Below, piece after piece: positions 50,378 to 56,727 of a DNA stretch of 64,000 nt. The notes beneath the pieces were generated by a model, which worked only from the letters and a program-made list of their open reading frames with translations, made no database searches and was not told the DNA's origin. The first letter of the stretch is position 1. Every line of letters begins with the position of its first letter. The position numbers were made by a program, and so were the translations under genes. Origin of the DNA: Mangrovicoccus algicola (GTDB lineage Bacteria; Pseudomonadota; Alphaproteobacteria; Rhodobacterales; Rhodobacteraceae); assembly GCF_014903745.1 (NCBI RefSeq), contig NZ_JACVXA010000020.1:1-64000 (forward strand), read 5' to 3'.

Positions 50378-51295
50378 CTAGGATTCGGTGGCGACCCGCC
50401 GCAGGATGTCGGCGAAGCGCGTGACAGAGGCGCCGGGCGCCTTGTCCAACCGCGTGCACAGCCCGACCGATCCCAGGGTCGTGCCGGTATCCATCGGCAA
50501 TTCGGCGAATTCCCCGGTTTCCAGCTGCGCCGCGACCACCCCCTGGGAGATGAACCACACGGCGCGGGACCGCTTGACGAAGGCCCAGCCGAAACTGGGC
50601 GAGACCGTCTCGATCGCATCCGCCGGGGGCGTCAGCCCCTGTTCCATCAGCAGCCGTTCCACGAAGGGCCGGATGATCGAGCCGGGCCCGGGCAGCAAGA
50701 CCGGGTACCGCGCCAGGTCCTCGGCCGAGAGCAGGCGGGCGCCCTCCAGCGGATGGCCGGCGGCGACCACCACCACGACGCGTTCGCGGTAGAGCGGTTC
50801 GAAGGTGACGGCGGCCATGTTCTCGGGTGCGGGCAGGCGGCCCACCACCAGGTCCAGCCGCCCCTCGCGCAGGTCGTTCAGCAGCACCAGGTTCGATCCG
50901 CTGGCCACCGACAGCCGCGCCCCCGGCCCCTCGGCGCGATAGGCGGCCACCGCCCGCGGCACGATCGTCGCCAGCACCGTGGGCAGCGCCCCGATCCGCA
51001 GCGGCGGCCCCTGGTCCGGATCGAGGCTCTGCAGCGCGCTCAGCCCCTCGCGCGCGGCGGCAAGGCTGGCCCCGGCATGGCGCAGGAAGATCGTGCCATA
51101 GGGCGAGAGGCGGATGCCGCGTCCGTGTTTCTCGAAAAGCGGCCGGCCGCAAAGCTCCTCCAGTTCGCGCAGCGTGCGGCTGACGGCGGGCTGGGTCAGA
51201 TGGAGCGCCTCGGCGGCGCGGCTGACGCTCTTGCGCTGCGCGACCTCGACGAACAATTCGAGGTGACGCATGTTGAGACGGCCGGAAAGACGCAT
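50378..51295 (-). CDS. pcaQ: LysR family activator of the pca operon
   Basis: 305-residue LysR-type regulator. HTH: RKSVSRAAEALHLTQPAVSRTLRELEEL; effector domain begins PLRIGALPTVLATIVP. The sequence and the position divergent from pcaD identify it as PcaQ, which activates pca genes in response to beta-carboxymuconate or its lactone in other alphaproteobacteria. The start at 51295 (MRLSGRLNMRHLELFVEVA) gives the normal N-terminus; the frame stays open upstream across the pcaD promoter but is not expected to be coding. Confidence 0.88.
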   Translation of the reverse strand: MRLSGRLNMRHLELFVEVAQRKSVSRAAEALHLTQPAVSRTLRELEELCGRPLFEKHGRGIRLSPYGTIFLRHAGASLAAAREGLSALQSLDPDQGPPLRIGALPTVLATIVPRAVAAYRAEGPGARLSVASGSNLVLLNDLREGRLDLVVGRLPAPENMAAVTFEPLYRERVVVVVAAGHPLEGARLLSAEDLARYPVLLPGPGSIIRPFVERLLMEQGLTPPADAIETVSPSFGWAFVKRSRAVWFISQGVVAAQLETGEFAELPMDTGTTLGSVGLCTRLDKAPGASVTRFADILRRVATES

Positions 51296-51377
51296 AGCAT
51301 ATCCGATATGATTAACGGCTGAGAAATTATTAAACATGCCCGAAATCATATGCCACACCATCCGCAGGGAGACATCA
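51296..51377. promoter_or_regulatory. pcaQ-pcaD intergenic control region
   Basis: An 82-base, AT-rich gap between divergent pcaQ and pcaD. ATATCC at 51299-51304 followed by GATTAA at 51310-51315 resembles the PcaQ box (ATAACC-N4-GGTTAA) with one mismatch in each half and one extra base of spacing. It is a candidate only. A GGGAGA ribosome binding site precedes pcaD. Confidence 0.35.
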
Positions 51378-52184
51378 ATGCAATTCATCACCGCCAATGA
51401 CATCACGCTCCATGTCCGGGTCGCGGGGCCCAAGGCCGCCGCGCAGACCCTGGTCCTGGTGAATTCGCTGGGCACGGATTTCCGCATCTGGGACGAGGTG
51501 CTGGCCCATCTGGCCGGACGCGCCCCGGACCTGCGGGTGATCTGCTATGACAAGCGCGGCCACGGGCTGAGCGATGCGGGCGAAAGCATCACCATGGCCG
51601 ATCACGTCGCCGACCTCGCCGGGCTTCTGGACCTTCTCGGGACGGGGCCGGCGGTGGTGCTGGGCCTGTCGGTGGGCGGGCAGGTGGCGCTGGGTCTGTC
51701 GGCGGCGCGGCCCGAGCTGGTCGCCGGGCTGATCCTGTCGAATACCGCGCACCGGATCGGCACGCCGCAGATGTGGCAGACCCGGATCCGCACCATCGAG
51801 GACGAGGGGATCGAGGCGCTGGCCACGCCGATCCTGGAACGCTGGTTCTCGGCCGGGTTCCGCGAGGGGTTCCCGACCGTTGTGGCGGGCTATCGCAACA
51901 TGCTGATCCGCACGCCGCTGGCCGGATATCTGGGCACCTGCGCGGCGATCCGCGACACGGACCTGACGCTGGCCGCGGAATCCGTGACGGTGCCGACCCT
52001 CTGCATCGCCGGCGAGGAGGACGGATCGACCCCGCCCGAGCTGGTCGCGGGCATGGCCGCGCTGATCCCCGGCGCCGTCACCGAAATAATCGCCAAGGCC
52101 GGGCACCTGCCGGGGATCGAATTCCCCGACGAGGTCGCCCAGCTGATCGCCCGGCATCTGGACCGGATCAAGGAGACCCCATGA
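51378..52184 (+). CDS. pcaD: 3-oxoadipate enol-lactonase
   Basis: 268-residue alpha/beta hydrolase that opens beta-ketoadipate enol-lactone to beta-ketoadipate. Oxyanion region LVLVNSLGTDFRIWDEV, nucleophile GLSVGGQVALGL (serine about residue 98) and histidine in IAKAGHLPGIEFP. Start at 51378 (MQFITANDITLH). Overlaps pcaC by 4 nt; first gene of the pca operon. Confidence 0.92.
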   Translation: MQFITANDITLHVRVAGPKAAAQTLVLVNSLGTDFRIWDEVLAHLAGRAPDLRVICYDKRGHGLSDAGESITMADHVADLAGLLDLLGTGPAVVLGLSVGGQVALGLSAARPELVAGLILSNTAHRIGTPQMWQTRIRTIEDEGIEALATPILERWFSAGFREGFPTVVAGYRNMLIRTPLAGYLGTCAAIRDTDLTLAAESVTVPTLCIAGEEDGSTPPELVAGMAALIPGAVTEIIAKAGHLPGIEFPDEVAQLIARHLDRIKETP

Positions 52185-52573
52185 CGACGCTTTCCCGCCA
52201 CGATCAGGGCATGCAGACCCGCCGCGCCGTGCTGGGCGACGCCCATGTCGACCGCGCCGAGGCCGCCAAGACGGCCTTCGACGAACCCTTCCAGGCGCTG
52301 ATCACCGAGGCCGCCTGGGGCCATGTCTGGTCGCGGCCGCAGATCACCCGGCGGGAACGCTCGATGATCACGCTGGCGCTTCTGGCGGCGCTGGGACAGT
52401 GGGACGAGGTCGCCATGCATGTGCGCGCCACCCGCAATACCGGCGCCACGCCCGATGATCTGCGCGAGGCGATGATGCATGTCGCCATCTATGCGGGCGT
52501 TCCCGCGGCCAATCACGCCAACAAGATCATCAAGGACACCCTGGCCCAGATGGAGGCGGCAGATGCACAATAA
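52181..52573 (+). CDS. pcaC: 4-carboxymuconolactone decarboxylase
   Basis: 130-residue AhpD-like carboxymuconolactone decarboxylase. Signature: [32 protein letters not shown] and [32 protein letters not shown]. It converts 4-carboxymuconolactone to the enol-lactone that PcaD uses. Here pcaD and pcaC are separate genes, not the fused pcaL. Overlaps pcaH by 11 nt. Confidence 0.93.
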
Positions 52574-53303
52574 CCCCCCCGAGACCGGCGCCTTCTATCC
52601 GCGCGATCCCGACTGGCATCCGCAGGCGCTGACGCCGGGCTACAAGACCTCGGTTCTGCGCGCGCCGCAGCGGGCGAAGATCAGCTTCGACCCGACCCTG
52701 GGCGAGATCGCCGGGCCGGCTTTCGGCCACGGGCTCTTGGGGCCGCTGGACAACGACCTGATCCTGAATTTCGCAAGCCCGGGCGAAAGCGCCATCGGCG
52801 AGCGGATCATCGTCCATGGCCGCGTGCAGGACGAACGCGGCCGCGGCGTCGGCGGCACGCTGGTGGAATTCTGGCAGGCCAATGCCGGCGGGCGCTACCG
52901 CCACAAGAAGGATGCCTATCTGGCGCCGCTGGATCCGAATTTCGGCGGCTGCGGCCGGACGATCACCGATGCGGCCGGCTATTACAGCTTCCGCACGATC
53001 AAGCCGGGCCCCTATCCCTGGCCGAACGGGGTGAATGACTGGCGTCCGCGCCACATCCATTTCTCGGTCTTCGGCACGGGCTTCGCGCAGCGGCTGATCA
53101 CCCAGATGTATTTCGAGGGCGACCCGCTGATCGACATCTGCCCGATCGTCAACACGATCCGCGACCAGGCCGCCATCGGCCAGCTGATCGCGCCGATGGA
53201 CATGGCCAATACCGTCCCGATGGACGCGATGGCCTACAAGTTCGACATCACGCTGCGCGGGCGGCGGTCGACGATGTTCGAGAACCGCCGGGAGGGCAAC
53301 TGA
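52563..53303 (+). CDS. pcaH: Protocatechuate 3,4-dioxygenase beta subunit
   Basis: 246-residue Fe(III) intradiol dioxygenase subunit. The iron-binding region is intact: tyrosine in [11 protein letters not shown], then the HIH motif in [26 protein letters not shown] is the dioxygenase family signature. With PcaG it opens protocatechuate to 3-carboxy-cis,cis-muconate. Stop and pcaG start share one base (TGATG). Confidence 0.95.
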
Positions 53304-53914
53304 TGCAGCGTCTGGACAGGCTGAAGGAATCCCCGTCGCAGACGGCCGGGCCCTATGTGCATATCGGCTGCGTGCCCAGCTTTGCCGGGATCGAGGGCGT
53401 CTATCCCGAGGATCTGGGCCGGGCGATGATCACCGGCGATGCCAAGGGCGAGAGGATCACCCTGACCGGCCGGGTCTTCGACGGCACCGGCACGCCGCTG
53501 CGCGACGCGATGATCGAGATCTGGCAGGCCGATGCGGCGGGGCTGTTCAATTCCCCGGCCGAAACCCGCGGCAGCGCCGATCCCGCCTTTGCCGGCTGGG
53601 GCCGCCAGCCCACGGATGGCGAGACGGGCATCTATGCCTTCGAGACGGTCAAGCCCGGGCGCGTGCCCTTTCCCGACGGACGCCTGCAGGCGCCGCACAT
53701 CACCATGTGGATCGTCGCGCGCGGCATCAATCTGGGGCTGTCCACCCGGGTCTATTTCGAGGACGAGGCCGAGGCGAATGCCGCCGATCCGATCCTGTCG
53801 CGGATCGAGCACAAGGCGCGGGTCCCCACGCTGATGGCCCGCCGCGCGGGCAGCGTCCATACCTTCGACATCCATTTGCAGGGCGAGAATGAAACCATCT
53901 TTTTCGACGTCTGA
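53303..53914 (+). CDS. pcaG: Protocatechuate 3,4-dioxygenase alpha subunit
   Basis: 203-residue non-catalytic partner of PcaH. MIEIWQADAAGLFNSP and PHITMWIVARGINLGLSTRVYFEDE match the alpha chain; the iron ligands of the beta chain are absent as expected. Its last 26 bases overlap the start of the BKACE gene. Confidence 0.94.
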   Translation: MQRLDRLKESPSQTAGPYVHIGCVPSFAGIEGVYPEDLGRAMITGDAKGERITLTGRVFDGTGTPLRDAMIEIWQADAAGLFNSPAETRGSADPAFAGWGRQPTDGETGIYAFETVKPGRVPFPDGRLQAPHITMWIVARGINLGLSTRVYFEDEAEANAADPILSRIEHKARVPTLMARRAGSVHTFDIHLQGENETIFFDV

Positions 53915-54761
53915 GCCGGCGCCGGTCGCGGGCCGGCCCTGCATCCTGTGCTGTGCCATCACCGGGTCGGTGCCCACCAAGGCGAACAATCCGGCCGTTC
54001 CGATCTCGATCGCGGAACAGGTGGAATCCAGCCACGAGGCGGCGGAGGCCGGCGCCTCGATCATCCATGCGCATGTCCGGAATGACGACCAGTCGCCATC
54101 CTCGGACCCGGAGAAATTCGCCCGGCTGAAGGAGGAACTGGAACGCCACGTTCCCGGCATCATCGTGCAGTTCTCCACCGGCGGCCGGTCGGGGGCGGGG
54201 CAGGCGCGCGGCGGGATGCTGCCCTTGCGGCCGGACATGGCATCGCTGTCGGTGGGGTCGAACAATTTCCCCAGCCGCGTCTACGAGAACCCGCCGGATC
54301 TGGTCGACTGGCTTGCCGCCGAGATGCGGACCCACGAAATCCAGCCCGAGATCGAGGCCTTCGACCTGTCGCATATCCTGCAGGCGATCCGCCTGCAGGA
54401 GGCGGGCCGGCTTCACGGTCGGCTTTACGTGCAATTCGTCATGGGGGTGAAGAACGCCATGCCCGCCGATCGCGAGATCTTCGACATCTATGTCGAGGTG
54501 ATGCGGCGGCGCGCGCCGCAGGCCAACTGGTGCGCGGCCGGGATCGGCGCGGCGCAGCTGGCGGTCAATGAATGGGCCATCGCGGCGGGCGGCCATACCC
54601 GCGCGGGGCTGGAGGACAATGTCCGGCTGGACCGCGACAGGCTGGCGCCGTCCAATGCGGCGCTGATCCGCCGGGCGGCCGATCTGTGCGCGAAATACGA
54701 CCGGCCGGTGGCCAGCATCGCCCAGGCGCGCGAGATCCTGGGGCTGAGGCCCGCCTCGTGA
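53889..54761 (+). CDS. Beta-keto acid cleavage enzyme (BKACE, DUF849 family)
   Basis: 290-residue metalloenzyme of the 3-keto-5-aminohexanoate cleavage family. The zinc-binding HxH is H60/H62 in IIHAHVRNDD; FSTGGRSGAG and the later NWCAAGIGAAQLAVNEWAIAAGGHTRAGLEDN are also characteristic. Members cleave a beta-keto acid with acetyl-CoA to give acetoacetate and a new acyl-CoA. Inside a pca operon the likely substrate is beta-ketoadipate, giving succinyl-CoA plus acetoacetate. This is inferred from context. Its start lies inside pcaG, and its stop overlaps the GTG of pcaB (GTGA). Confidence 0.88.
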   Translation: MKPSFSTSEPAPVAGRPCILCCAITGSVPTKANNPAVPISIAEQVESSHEAAEAGASIIHAHVRNDDQSPSSDPEKFARLKEELERHVPGIIVQFSTGGRSGAGQARGGMLPLRPDMASLSVGSNNFPSRVYENPPDLVDWLAAEMRTHEIQPEIEAFDLSHILQAIRLQEAGRLHGRLYVQFVMGVKNAMPADREIFDIYVEVMRRRAPQANWCAAGIGAAQLAVNEWAIAAGGHTRAGLEDNVRLDRDRLAPSNAALIRRAADLCAKYDRPVASIAQAREILGLRPAS

Positions 54762-55819
54762 TCTCGGTCTTCGATCATCCCTGGCTGGGCGGGCTATTCG
54801 CCGAGCCGGCCCTGGCCGCCTGCCTCGGCCCCGAGGCGGTCCTGGCGCATATGCTGCGGATGGAGGCCGCCTATGCGAGGGTGCTGGGCGCGGTGGGCGC
54901 GGTGGCGCCCGAGCTGGCGGCGCGCGCCTCGGCGCAGATCCTGGCGGCCAGCCCGGAGATGGGCGCGCTGCGCGCCGGCATGGCGCAGGACGGGGTCGTC
55001 GTCGCCGCGCTGGTGCGCGAGCTGAAGGCGGCGGTCGATCCCGAGGCGCAGGCCGCGCTGCACAAGGGGCTGACCTCGCAGGATGTCATGGACACGGCCA
55101 CGATCCTGTCGCTGCGGGCGGCCAATGACCTGCTGGCCGACGGGCTGGGCCGGCTTCGGGCCTCGCTGGAGGCGCTGCTTGACCGGTTCGGCGACCGGCC
55201 GCTGACCGGCCGAACGCGGATGCAGGCCGCGCTGCCGATCACGGTGCGCGACCGAGTGGAGACCTGGGCGCTGCCGCTGGAGGCGCATCTCGACCGGCTG
55301 GCCGAACTGCGTCCGCGGCTGGAATGCCTGCAATTCGGCGGGGCGGCGGGCAACCGCGCGGCCTCGGGCGATCTGGCCGGGGCGATCTCGGGCCGGCTTG
55401 CCGCCGAACTGGACCTGGCGCCGACGGCCCGGTCCTGGCAGGCGATGCGCGACGGGGTCGCGGAATACGCGTCCTGGCTGTCGCTGGTCTCGGGGACGCT
55501 GGGCAAGATGGGCCAGGATGCGGCGATCATGGCGCTGCAGGGCATCGACGAATTGCGCCTGACAGGCGGCGGCGGCTCCTCGGCCATGCCGCACAAGCAG
55601 AACCCGGTTTCCGCCGAGCTTCTGGTGACGCTGGCGCGGTTCAACGCGGTGCAGGTCTCGGCCATGCATCAGGCGATGGTGCATGAACAGGAACGCTCGG
55701 GCGCGGCCTGGTCGCTGGAATGGATGGTGCTGCCGCAGATGGTCATGTCCACCGGCCGCGGCCTGTCCCTGGCGCAGTCCCTGTGCGACAGCATCGCCGA
55801 TCTGGGCCGCCGCGGCTGA
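54758..55819 (+). CDS. pcaB: 3-carboxy-cis,cis-muconate cycloisomerase
   Basis: 353-residue member of the fumarase/aspartase superfamily. The superfamily signature is GGSSAMPHKQNPV, and LHKGLTSQDVMDTA is the second conserved segment. It lactonises 3-carboxymuconate to 4-carboxymuconolactone. The start is a GTG at 54758 that overlaps the BKACE stop; the reading MISVFDHPWLGGLFAE is the normal N-terminus. Somewhat short relative to the ~450-residue forms because the C-terminal domain is reduced. Confidence 0.92.
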   Translation: MISVFDHPWLGGLFAEPALAACLGPEAVLAHMLRMEAAYARVLGAVGAVAPELAARASAQILAASPEMGALRAGMAQDGVVVAALVRELKAAVDPEAQAALHKGLTSQDVMDTATILSLRAANDLLADGLGRLRASLEALLDRFGDRPLTGRTRMQAALPITVRDRVETWALPLEAHLDRLAELRPRLECLQFGGAAGNRAASGDLAGAISGRLAAELDLAPTARSWQAMRDGVAEYASWLSLVSGTLGKMGQDAAIMALQGIDELRLTGGGGSSAMPHKQNPVSAELLVTLARFNAVQVSAMHQAMVHEQERSGAAWSLEWMVLPQMVMSTGRGLSLAQSLCDSIADLGRRG

Positions 55820-55823
55820 ACAG

Positions 55824-55847
55824 CCCCCCGGTCGCGGAACCGGGGGG
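55824..55847. terminator. Stem-loop between convergent pcaB and ilvE
   Basis: Perfect 9-bp inverted repeat CCCCCCGGT / ACCGGGGGG with a 6-nt loop in the 38-base gap. No U-tract on either side; likely serves both genes. Confidence 0.6.
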
Positions 55848-55857
55848 TGCGATGAGC

Positions 55858-56727
55858 TCAGGCGCGGACGAGTTTCTCGTAGGTTTCGGCGATGTCGCGG
55901 GTCAGGGCGCCGACCTCGAAACTGTAATCGCCGATGACGCCCACGGGCGTGACCTCGGCCGCTGTCCCGGTCAGCCAGCATTGCTGGAACCCTTCCAGTT
56001 CGCCCGGCTCGATATGGCGCTCATGCACGGTGATGCCCTTCTCGCGCAGCAGGCCGATGACCGTCTGGCGGGTGATCCCGTTGAGGATGCAGTCCGGATC
56101 GGGGGTGTGCACCTCGCCATCCTTCACGAAGAAGATGTTGGCGCCGGTCGCCTCGGCCACGTAGCCGCGATAGTCGAAGAACATCGCATCCGAGAAGCCC
56201 TTGGCCTCGGCGGCGTGCTTGGACATGGTGCAGATCATGTAGAGCCCGGCCGCCTTGGCATGGGTCGGGATGGTCTCGGGCGAGGGGCGTTTCCACTTGG
56301 CGATGTCGAGCTTGGCGCCCTTCATCTTGGCGTCGCCGTAATAGGCGCCCCAGCCCCAGGCCGCCACGGCCATGCGCACCGGGTTCTTCATCGAGCTGAC
56401 GCCCATGTCCTCGCCCGCGCCGCGCCAGGCGACCGCACGCACATAGGCATCGGTCAGCCCGTTGGCCTGCAGCACCTCGATCTTGGCGGCCTCGATCTCG
56501 TCCACGGTATAGGGGATCGGCATGTCCAGCGCGACGCCCGAATTCAGCAGCCGCTCGGAATGGGCGCGCGACTTGAAGATGGTGCCGTTATAGGCCCGTT
56601 CCCCTTCGAATACCGAAGACGCGTAATGCAGCGCATGAGACAGAATGTGAACATTCGCATCCCGCCACGGCACCAGCTTGCCGTCCATCCAGATCATCCC
56701 GTCGCGGTCGTCGTAGCTGCCCGCCAT
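55858..56727 (-). CDS. ilvE: Branched-chain amino acid aminotransferase
   Basis: 289-residue class IV PLP aminotransferase for leucine, isoleucine and valine. DANVHILSHALHYASSVFEGERAY at the start, the PLP lysine within KAAGLYMICTMSKHAAEAKGFSD, and ATGANIFFVKDGEVHTPDPDCILNGITRQTV are conserved. Single gene, convergent with pcaB and divergent from petP. Confidence 0.93.
   Translation of the reverse strand: MAGSYDDRDGMIWMDGKLVPWRDANVHILSHALHYASSVFEGERAYNGTIFKSRAHSERLLNSGVALDMPIPYTVDEIEAAKIEVLQANGLTDAYVRAVAWRGAGEDMGVSSMKNPVRMAVAAWGWGAYYGDAKMKGAKLDIAKWKRPSPETIPTHAKAAGLYMICTMSKHAAEAKGFSDAMFFDYRGYVAEATGANIFFVKDGEVHTPDPDCILNGITRQTVIGLLREKGITVHERHIEPGELEGFQQCWLTGTAAEVTPVGVIGDYSFEVGALTRDIAETYEKLVRA

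Follow-up and report, generated by a model that had tools for sequence, protein, structure and literature searches.

Beta-keto acid cleavage enzymes (BKACE, DUF849) have been proposed to act at the end of the protocatechuate branch of the beta-ketoadipate pathway. Here we describe one such gene, termed KCE, which lies between pcaG and pcaB in a stretch of 64,000 nucleotides (nt) from Mangrovicoccus algicola (contig NZ_JACVXA010000020.1, positions 1 to 64,000 of the forward strand), referred to below as the window. Among the closest described arrangements is that of Methylobacterium. The available text of PMC8963497 describes strains of which nearly all have this gene flanked by pcaG and pcaB, in a cluster lacking pcaIJ and pcaF, and proposes that the BKACE takes over the function of pcaI and pcaJ; several of the Methylobacterium proteins were classed there as G4 in the grouping of Bastard et al. 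2014. According to the accessible part of PMC12379598, a plasmid carrying pcaHG, kce, pcaB and pcaL together with van genes gave M. extorquens PA1 growth on protocatechuate, to which host enzymes may have contributed. By contrast, the cluster of M. extorquens isolates includes PcaIJ and PcaF according to the available portion of PMC12542667. The available text of PMC6449761 predicts a beta-ketoadipate-cleaving COG3246 enzyme, often associated with protocatechuate dioxygenase genes, and reports the COG3246 gene of R. eutropha H16 with catechol genes, whereas the KCE of the window stands with protocatechuate genes. For Methylobacterium and Cupriavidus the replacement idea has already been published, and an NCBIfam model, NF053568, exists for the enzyme; the suffix CUPNH in the name of this model suggests Cupriavidus necator as its source. 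A title and abstract search of the open literature, with most subscription journals outside its coverage, returned no paper applying KCE to roseobacters. The new and testable elements are the coexistence of two endings in a single genome, gene exchange within one operon slot, and a rereading of published work on Roseovarius nubinhibens.

The locus in M. algicola shares with the Methylobacterium clusters, as far as the available texts of PMC8963497 and PMC12379598 describe them, the slot (pcaG-DUF849(kce)-pcaB), the lack of pcaIJ and pcaF in the cluster, and the proposed reaction. It differs in belonging to another family and in that the genome additionally carries pcaIJF on another contig. The operon pcaD-pcaC-pcaH-pcaG-KCE-pcaB occupies 51378-55819 of the plus strand, and each of its six genes scored above an NCBIfam cut-off. 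An earlier interpretation made from the letters of the window (the sequence-only reading) had described this order with every junction overlapping, which the coordinates and model matches bear out: the overlaps are 4 nt (D/C), 11 nt (C/H), 1 nt (H/G), 26 nt (G/KCE) and 4 nt (KCE/B). It had also reported PcaIJ and PcaF as absent, and none of pcaI, pcaJ or pcaF is indeed found inside the operon, but the genome as a whole holds a pcaI-pcaJ-pcaF set on contig C2. The overlap of pcaG and KCE recurs in two Mangrovicoccus genomes, whose KCE proteins are 88% identical to that of the window from residue 1. The nonsynonymous and synonymous divergences of the window's KCE from Mangrovicoccus locus L048 (dN 0.087, dS 0.63) point to purifying selection, and the GC content at third codon positions (GC3) of KCE, 0.87, is in line with that of the operon (0.84-0.91).

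We consider it probable that KCE is a dedicated last enzyme of this pathway, acting via acetoacetate. In M. algicola it would be a second ending beside the separate pcaIJF set, which adjoins a regulator of the PcaR/PcaU family, and in most of the sampled genera with pcaH it would be the main or only dedicated ending. We base this on the NF053568 match, the overlap with pcaG and pcaB, the linkage to pcaH, the exchange of genes in the slot, the gene content of one nearly complete genome (G103, below), purifying selection, and the transfer to M. extorquens PA1. Gene order, family membership, the pcaIJF set and the distribution are read directly from sequence, whereas substrate, reaction, the fate of acetoacetate, regulation and the use of both endings are inferred.

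The assignment of the protein as a BKACE of the predicted beta-ketoadipate-cleaving type, also made in the sequence-only reading, is sound. The match to PF05853 (cut-off 24.8) covered profile positions 1-274 of 274, and that to the curated equivalog model NF053568 positions 2-273 of 274 (scores in Table 1). The protein did not reach the cut-off of the model for Kce of lysine fermentation, NF052387 (242.9 bits vs 382). The zinc-binding HxH motif is intact, as had been claimed, in the form H60-A61-H62. Residues H60, H62, R238, E242 and D243 are present in KCE and in all 87 aligned relatives; we take the zinc-binding and catalytic roles of HxH, Arg, Glu and Asp to be those of the Kce structure. 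The nearest solved chains were 3chv, 3fa5 and 3no5, with Kce (PDB 2y7d) further off. Kce nevertheless belongs to the same fold family, and the equivalents of its HxH, Ser82, Arg226, Glu230 and Asp231 are present in KCE; their numbering and catalytic roles in 2y7d are presumed here. In an alignment made relative to the structure, Glu14 and Ala86 of Kce correspond to Val28 and Arg100 of KCE, two positions which presumably face the substrate. Neither residue marks the operon-linked enzymes. Val28 occurred in 33 of 50 pca-linked and 31 of 37 unlinked relatives, without separating them, and Arg100, found in 50/50 linked and 36/37 unlinked proteins, is a family trait; the 37 unlinked relatives include one copy of 34% identity and six selected for being unlinked.

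In the proposed route, KCE would condense beta-ketoadipate with acetyl-CoA and cleave the product into succinyl-CoA and acetoacetate. A ScoAB-type CoA-transferase, for which the candidate is the pair on contig C24 (235.2 bits on TIGR02429, A subunit 46% identical to PcaI), would then convert acetoacetate and succinyl-CoA to acetoacetyl-CoA and succinate, and a thiolase, such as that on C85, would split acetoacetyl-CoA with CoA into two acetyl-CoA. The net conversion, derived from established reactions, would be beta-ketoadipate + CoA to succinate + acetyl-CoA, identical to that of PcaIJ and PcaF combined. The classical enzymes work in two steps via beta-ketoadipyl-CoA, whereas KCE would take one step and release acetoacetate. 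The "shortened end" of the pathway put forward in the sequence-only reading calls for correction, as acetoacetate would still need activation and a thiolase. By this derivation, KCE puts one gene in place of three dedicated ones while leaning on housekeeping ketone-body enzymes, and the pathway as a whole is no shorter.

The genome (4.39 Mb in 145 contigs, 98.9% complete) contains one BKACE, three PF01144 CoA-transferase gene pairs and four Thiolase_C matches. A search of the contigs for pcaI, pcaJ and pcaF located all three in a row on C2, with overlapping ends: pcaI scored 371.8 bits on TIGR02429, pcaJ 295.7 bits on TIGR02428, both over cut-off, and pcaF 681.9 bits on the equivalog model TIGR02430 (cut-off 597). 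Since ScoAB falls within the scope of TIGR02429 and TIGR02428 too, both being subfamily models, we named the first two genes from the adjoining pcaF and from the divergent IclR-type gene beside them, which matched the PcaR/PcaU/PobR family model (328.2 bits, cut-off 284.75). The surroundings of PcaI orthologues were compared in M. algicola and 20 other genomes (21 stretches, some of which stop at contig ends): this IclR gene was present in 18/21 and an adjacent pcaF in 18/21. The suggestion that PcaIJ and PcaF are missing from the organism was therefore rejected, and with the set on C2 their replacement by KCE does not hold for M. algicola. Contamination was thought an unlikely origin of C2, on the weak evidence of its GC content (0.712, pcaI GC3 0.90; window GC 0.681) and an assembly contamination of 0.02. 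A second PcaF-type thiolase is found on C72 (632.9 bits), among neighbours that by eye resemble beta-oxidation genes. Beside pcaIJF (L012:1482-5337, minus strand) we also observed three molybdenum hydroxylase subunits near PaoABC and near 4-hydroxybenzoyl-CoA reductase, all scoring below the cut-offs of the models.

Two other divisions of labour between the sets have to be considered. PcaIJ and PcaF may carry the flux, with KCE taking a minor share or the overflow, or being left over from the past of the operon. The scores of pcaIJF, each above its model cut-off, and the adjoining PcaR-type regulator fit this proposal, but KCE overlaps its operon neighbours, bears the signature of purifying selection and has an operon-like GC3, and we regard the proposal as unlikely. 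Somewhat less doubtful, and still tentative, is the idea that KCE serves protocatechuate while pcaIJF handles beta-ketoadipate from outside or from another pathway, so that the two would not be redundant. The regulators differ (PcaQ beside the operon, a PcaR/PcaU-family IclR protein beside pcaIJF), 6/198 genomes of the family lacked both pcaH and KCE over cut-off yet had a PcaI orthologue, and a Roseivivax plasmid carries pcaIJF near a dioxygenase and a benzoate transporter. Against it, the genome of M. algicola has no catA- or catC-type gene (PF00775 matched only pcaH and pcaG, PF02426 nothing), and no other source of beta-ketoadipate was identified, none having been searched for. Retention of pcaIJF for a catechol branch was rejected on the lack of catA- and catC-type matches.

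Among 198 genomes of the Rhodobacteraceae, one per genus, NF053568 was over cut-off in 141, TIGR02430 (pcaF) in 120 and pcaH in 126. KCE was positioned at 150 places in 132 genomes among the matches listed, and nine further genomes, counted from their best E-value and lacking a position, complete the 141. KCE and pcaH were no more than 6 kb apart and in the same orientation in at least 76 of the 126 pcaH genomes; among the matches listed, KCE lay downstream of pcaH in 76/77 pairs. In at least 64 of these genomes the gap was 550-800 nt, about the length of pcaG, and given this recurrence the arrangement is not due to chance. Orthologues of PcaI, defined by at least 67% identity to the protein of this genome, were found in 26 genomes, M. 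algicola included, with four more at 56-59%; the remaining PcaI matches, among those listed, were at most 50% identical. With PcaI counted from 56%, the 126 pcaH genomes comprised 19 with both KCE and PcaI, 98 with KCE only, five with PcaI only and four with neither (Fisher p = 0.012, in a test that ignores phylogeny). With the threshold at 67%, the counts were 16, 101, 4 and 5 (p = 0.035, phylogeny again ignored). Two of the four genomes with neither are incomplete (G119, 78%; G196, 64%), and the other two, G014 and G059, have a different transferase pair. Among the matches listed, 62 genomes had a pca-linked KCE without a PcaI orthologue at 56%. Replacement of PcaIJ and PcaF, which fails for M. 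algicola, is therefore likely right for many of its relatives, in view of the frequency of KCE where no PcaI orthologue was found (98/126).

The slot between pcaG and pcaB was variously filled by KCE, by CoA-transferase genes with pcaF, by something else, or by nothing. G014 and G059 have two PF01144 CoA-transferase genes and pcaF between pcaG and pcaB, and no KCE there. The four transferase proteins matched no NCBIfam model at 1e-20, and from their position we infer that each pair is pcaIJ. In G034, G046, G077 and G091, pcaG and pcaB are separated by 51-125 nt with no KCE between them; these genomes have no KCE over cut-off anywhere and carry a PcaI orthologue elsewhere. The slot of G189 is taken by an open reading frame (ORF; L154:7585-8295, plus strand) that on visual inspection resembles an alpha/beta hydrolase; NF053568 has no match in this genome, whose PcaI-like match is 58% identical. 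Of the genomic evidence, this exchange of genes in one slot argues most strongly that KCE and pcaIJF fulfil the same function. The genome G103 (99% complete) has KCE 685 nt from pcaH (C5:105579-107744). PF01144, which does detect the CoA-transferases of G014 and G059, matched nothing in it, nor did any acetoacetyl-CoA synthetase score above cut-off.

We also retrieved 80 named loci with the KCE of the window, several on stretches shortened by contig ends. At least one of pcaC, pcaG and pcaH was on the stretch in 53/80 and none in 27/80; in 50/80 a co-oriented pcaG or pcaH lay no more than 2.5 kb from KCE, and KCE was followed by pcaB in 29/80. The Ruegeria pomeroyi DSS-3 megaplasmid has the order pcaQ(-) pobA pcaC pcaH pcaG KCE, in which KCE (SPO_RS19985, 78% identical to that of the window) is the last of the pca genes; unlike the window, the stretch shows no pcaD or pcaB. 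SPO_RS19985 presumably corresponds to the conserved ORF that Buchan et al. 2004 reportedly described 3' of pcaG. Paracoccus versutus pTAV3 carries pcaQ(-) pobA pcaD pcaC pcaH pcaG KCE, then a lyase-family gene, together with a PcaI orthologue (77.9%), and is a second organism with both endings. In 22 of the 25 plasmid records listed, KCE was annotated "3-keto-5-aminohexanoate cleavage protein". One named locus of the Rhodobacteraceae (L076:6001-8156) has KCE followed directly by a CoA-transferase pair 43%/49% identical to PcaI/PcaJ, which is the level of ScoAB; KCE and a possible acetoacetate-activating partner are there side by side in the pca cluster.

At two loci, possibly of one genome (L156:6220-7311, minus strand; L057:6835-7926, plus strand), a KCE gene without pca neighbours abuts a gene for an ATP:guanido phosphotransferase, or phosphagen kinase (PF00217, 156.4 bits), an indication that KCE or acetoacetate may serve a further purpose. 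This lineage, and the promiscuity and diversity of BKACE enzymes described in the available text of PMC4922564, would suit a KCE with some other beta-keto acid as substrate, whose position in the operon would reflect another substrate class. The NF053568 match and the occurrence, in two genera, of CoA-transferase genes with pcaF at this slot speak against this, and we consider it very improbable.

KCE as the dedicated ending bears on a genetic study published in 2025 on Roseovarius nubinhibens grown on 4-hydroxybenzoate (PMC12442348). In the available text, the response of pcaF was negligible and its inactivation made no difference to growth; the acyltransferase gene ISM_RS10035 was likewise dispensable, and a double mutant with pcaF reached a lower final density. 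ISM_RS03130/03135, picked by alignment to PcaIJ of P. putida and C. glutamicum, increased about 2-fold as protein and were needed for growth (ISM_RS03130 was inactivated); use of the substrate persisted, severely reduced. The authors concluded that an acetyl-CoA acetyltransferase and the acyltransferase compensate; in the reported "pathway crosstalk", thiolases of the beta-oxidation type make up for PcaF. The terms "cleavage enzyme", "aminohexanoate", "DUF849" and "acetoacetate" have zero occurrences in the main text as available.

In the R. nubinhibens ISM genome (L050) we found KCE directly after pcaG in the pca cluster, 82% identical to that of the window. The genome gave a single TIGR02429 match (237.4 bits), other CoA-transferase types not having been searched for there. 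This protein, presumably ISM_RS03130, is 88% identical to ScoA of M. algicola and 46% to its PcaI. Its best solved relative was a succinyl-CoA:3-ketoacid CoA-transferase subunit (336 bits), a chain on which PcaI scored 222. On this reading the transferase of R. nubinhibens acts on acetoacetate, PcaF is unnecessary and no crosstalk is needed; KCE together with ketone-body enzymes would explain why pcaF is dispensable. The 12.6-fold rise of beta-ketoadipate in the available text of PMC12442348 fits either route. We hold with a modest preference, and less firmly than the role of KCE itself, that most protocatechuate-degrading Rhodobacteraceae end via KCE, ScoAB and thiolase, with no PcaIJ, that the "PcaIJ" of R. 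nubinhibens are ScoAB, and that genomes like that of the window have two functional endings under two regulators.

Several observations weigh against KCE as the dedicated ending. The pcaIJF set of M. algicola could carry all the flux. Of the 62 genomes that combine a pca-linked KCE with the lack of a PcaI orthologue, 39 had a PcaF-type thiolase over cut-off and 23 did not (among the matches listed). PcaF-type thiolases also serve phenylacetate breakdown, and those of the 39 genomes were taken to serve that route or both. At two loci (L052:6001-8247 and L160:5261-8199), KCE adjoins a PcaF-type thiolase, 70% and 66% identical, respectively, to PcaF of M. algicola, with no pcaG or pcaH near, an arrangement at odds with the KCE route in its simplest form. 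Such thiolases, common in KCE-only genomes and adjoining KCE at these loci, slightly lower our confidence in KCE as the ending and in the family-wide reading. The KCE-only count may be too high, as transferase pairs of the G014/G059 type fall outside the PcaI criterion. KCE may have other uses, given that at 30/80 loci no co-oriented pcaG or pcaH lay within 2.5 kb (some stretches being short); in two of these 30, KCE is followed by pcaB all the same. Acetoacetyl-CoA synthetase was found in 3/9 KCE genomes without a Sco/Ato/PcaI-type transferase and in 25/132 with one (p = 0.38), and the prediction that it is an obligatory partner of KCE where a transferase is lacking failed. Against the rereading of the R. 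nubinhibens data, a ScoAB-type enzyme might itself take beta-ketoadipate, which the interpretation in the available text of PMC12442348 requires.

The features of the window are collected in Table 1. The pcaQ gene is divergent from the operon; its ORF as listed extends to 51487 and its start is approximate, the TIGR02424 match covering residues 70-367 of the long ORF. On the older model TIGR02426, pcaB scored 326 bits, below the cut-off of 355.75. The hairpin after pcaB has no T-run and was not called an intrinsic terminator. Scans of 51150-56000 returned no terminator-like site and one weak promoter-like site, where 0.4 were expected.

Table 1. Features of the pca locus in the window
Feature	Position	Strand	Evidence
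pcaQ, LysR-type activator	50378..51280	-	TIGR02424 TF_pcaQ 397.1 bits, cut-off 303.8
pcaD, 3-oxoadipate enol-lactonase	51378..52184	+	TIGR02427 299.2 bits, cut-off 255.85
pcaC, 4-carboxymuconolactone decarboxylase	52181..52573	+	TIGR02425 190 bits, cut-off 155.7
pcaH, protocatechuate 3,4-dioxygenase beta subunit	52563..53303	+	TIGR02422 354.6 bits, cut-off 296.4
pcaG, protocatechuate 3,4-dioxygenase alpha subunit	53303..53914	+	TIGR02423 246.1 bits, cut-off 126.25
KCE (BKACE/DUF849), predicted 3-oxoadipate:acetyl-CoA acetyltransferase	53889..54761	+	PF05853 299.7 bits; NF053568 467.8 bits, cut-off 350
pcaB, GTG start	54758..55819	+	NF004631 438 bits, cut-off 371
GC-rich hairpin directly 3' of pcaB, possible operon end	55823..55848	+	-26 kcal/mol for 55815-55860, z -2.62

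The beta-ketoadipate pathway features in textbooks as a route for aromatics that come from lignin, and it is used by the roseobacters, a group of bacteria abundant in the sea. Should KCE usually be the last enzyme in these bacteria, automated annotation would be concealing it, and the published genetic study of R. nubinhibens may need rereading. Strain engineering would then have to target KCE and the activation of acetoacetate, not PcaIJ and PcaF.

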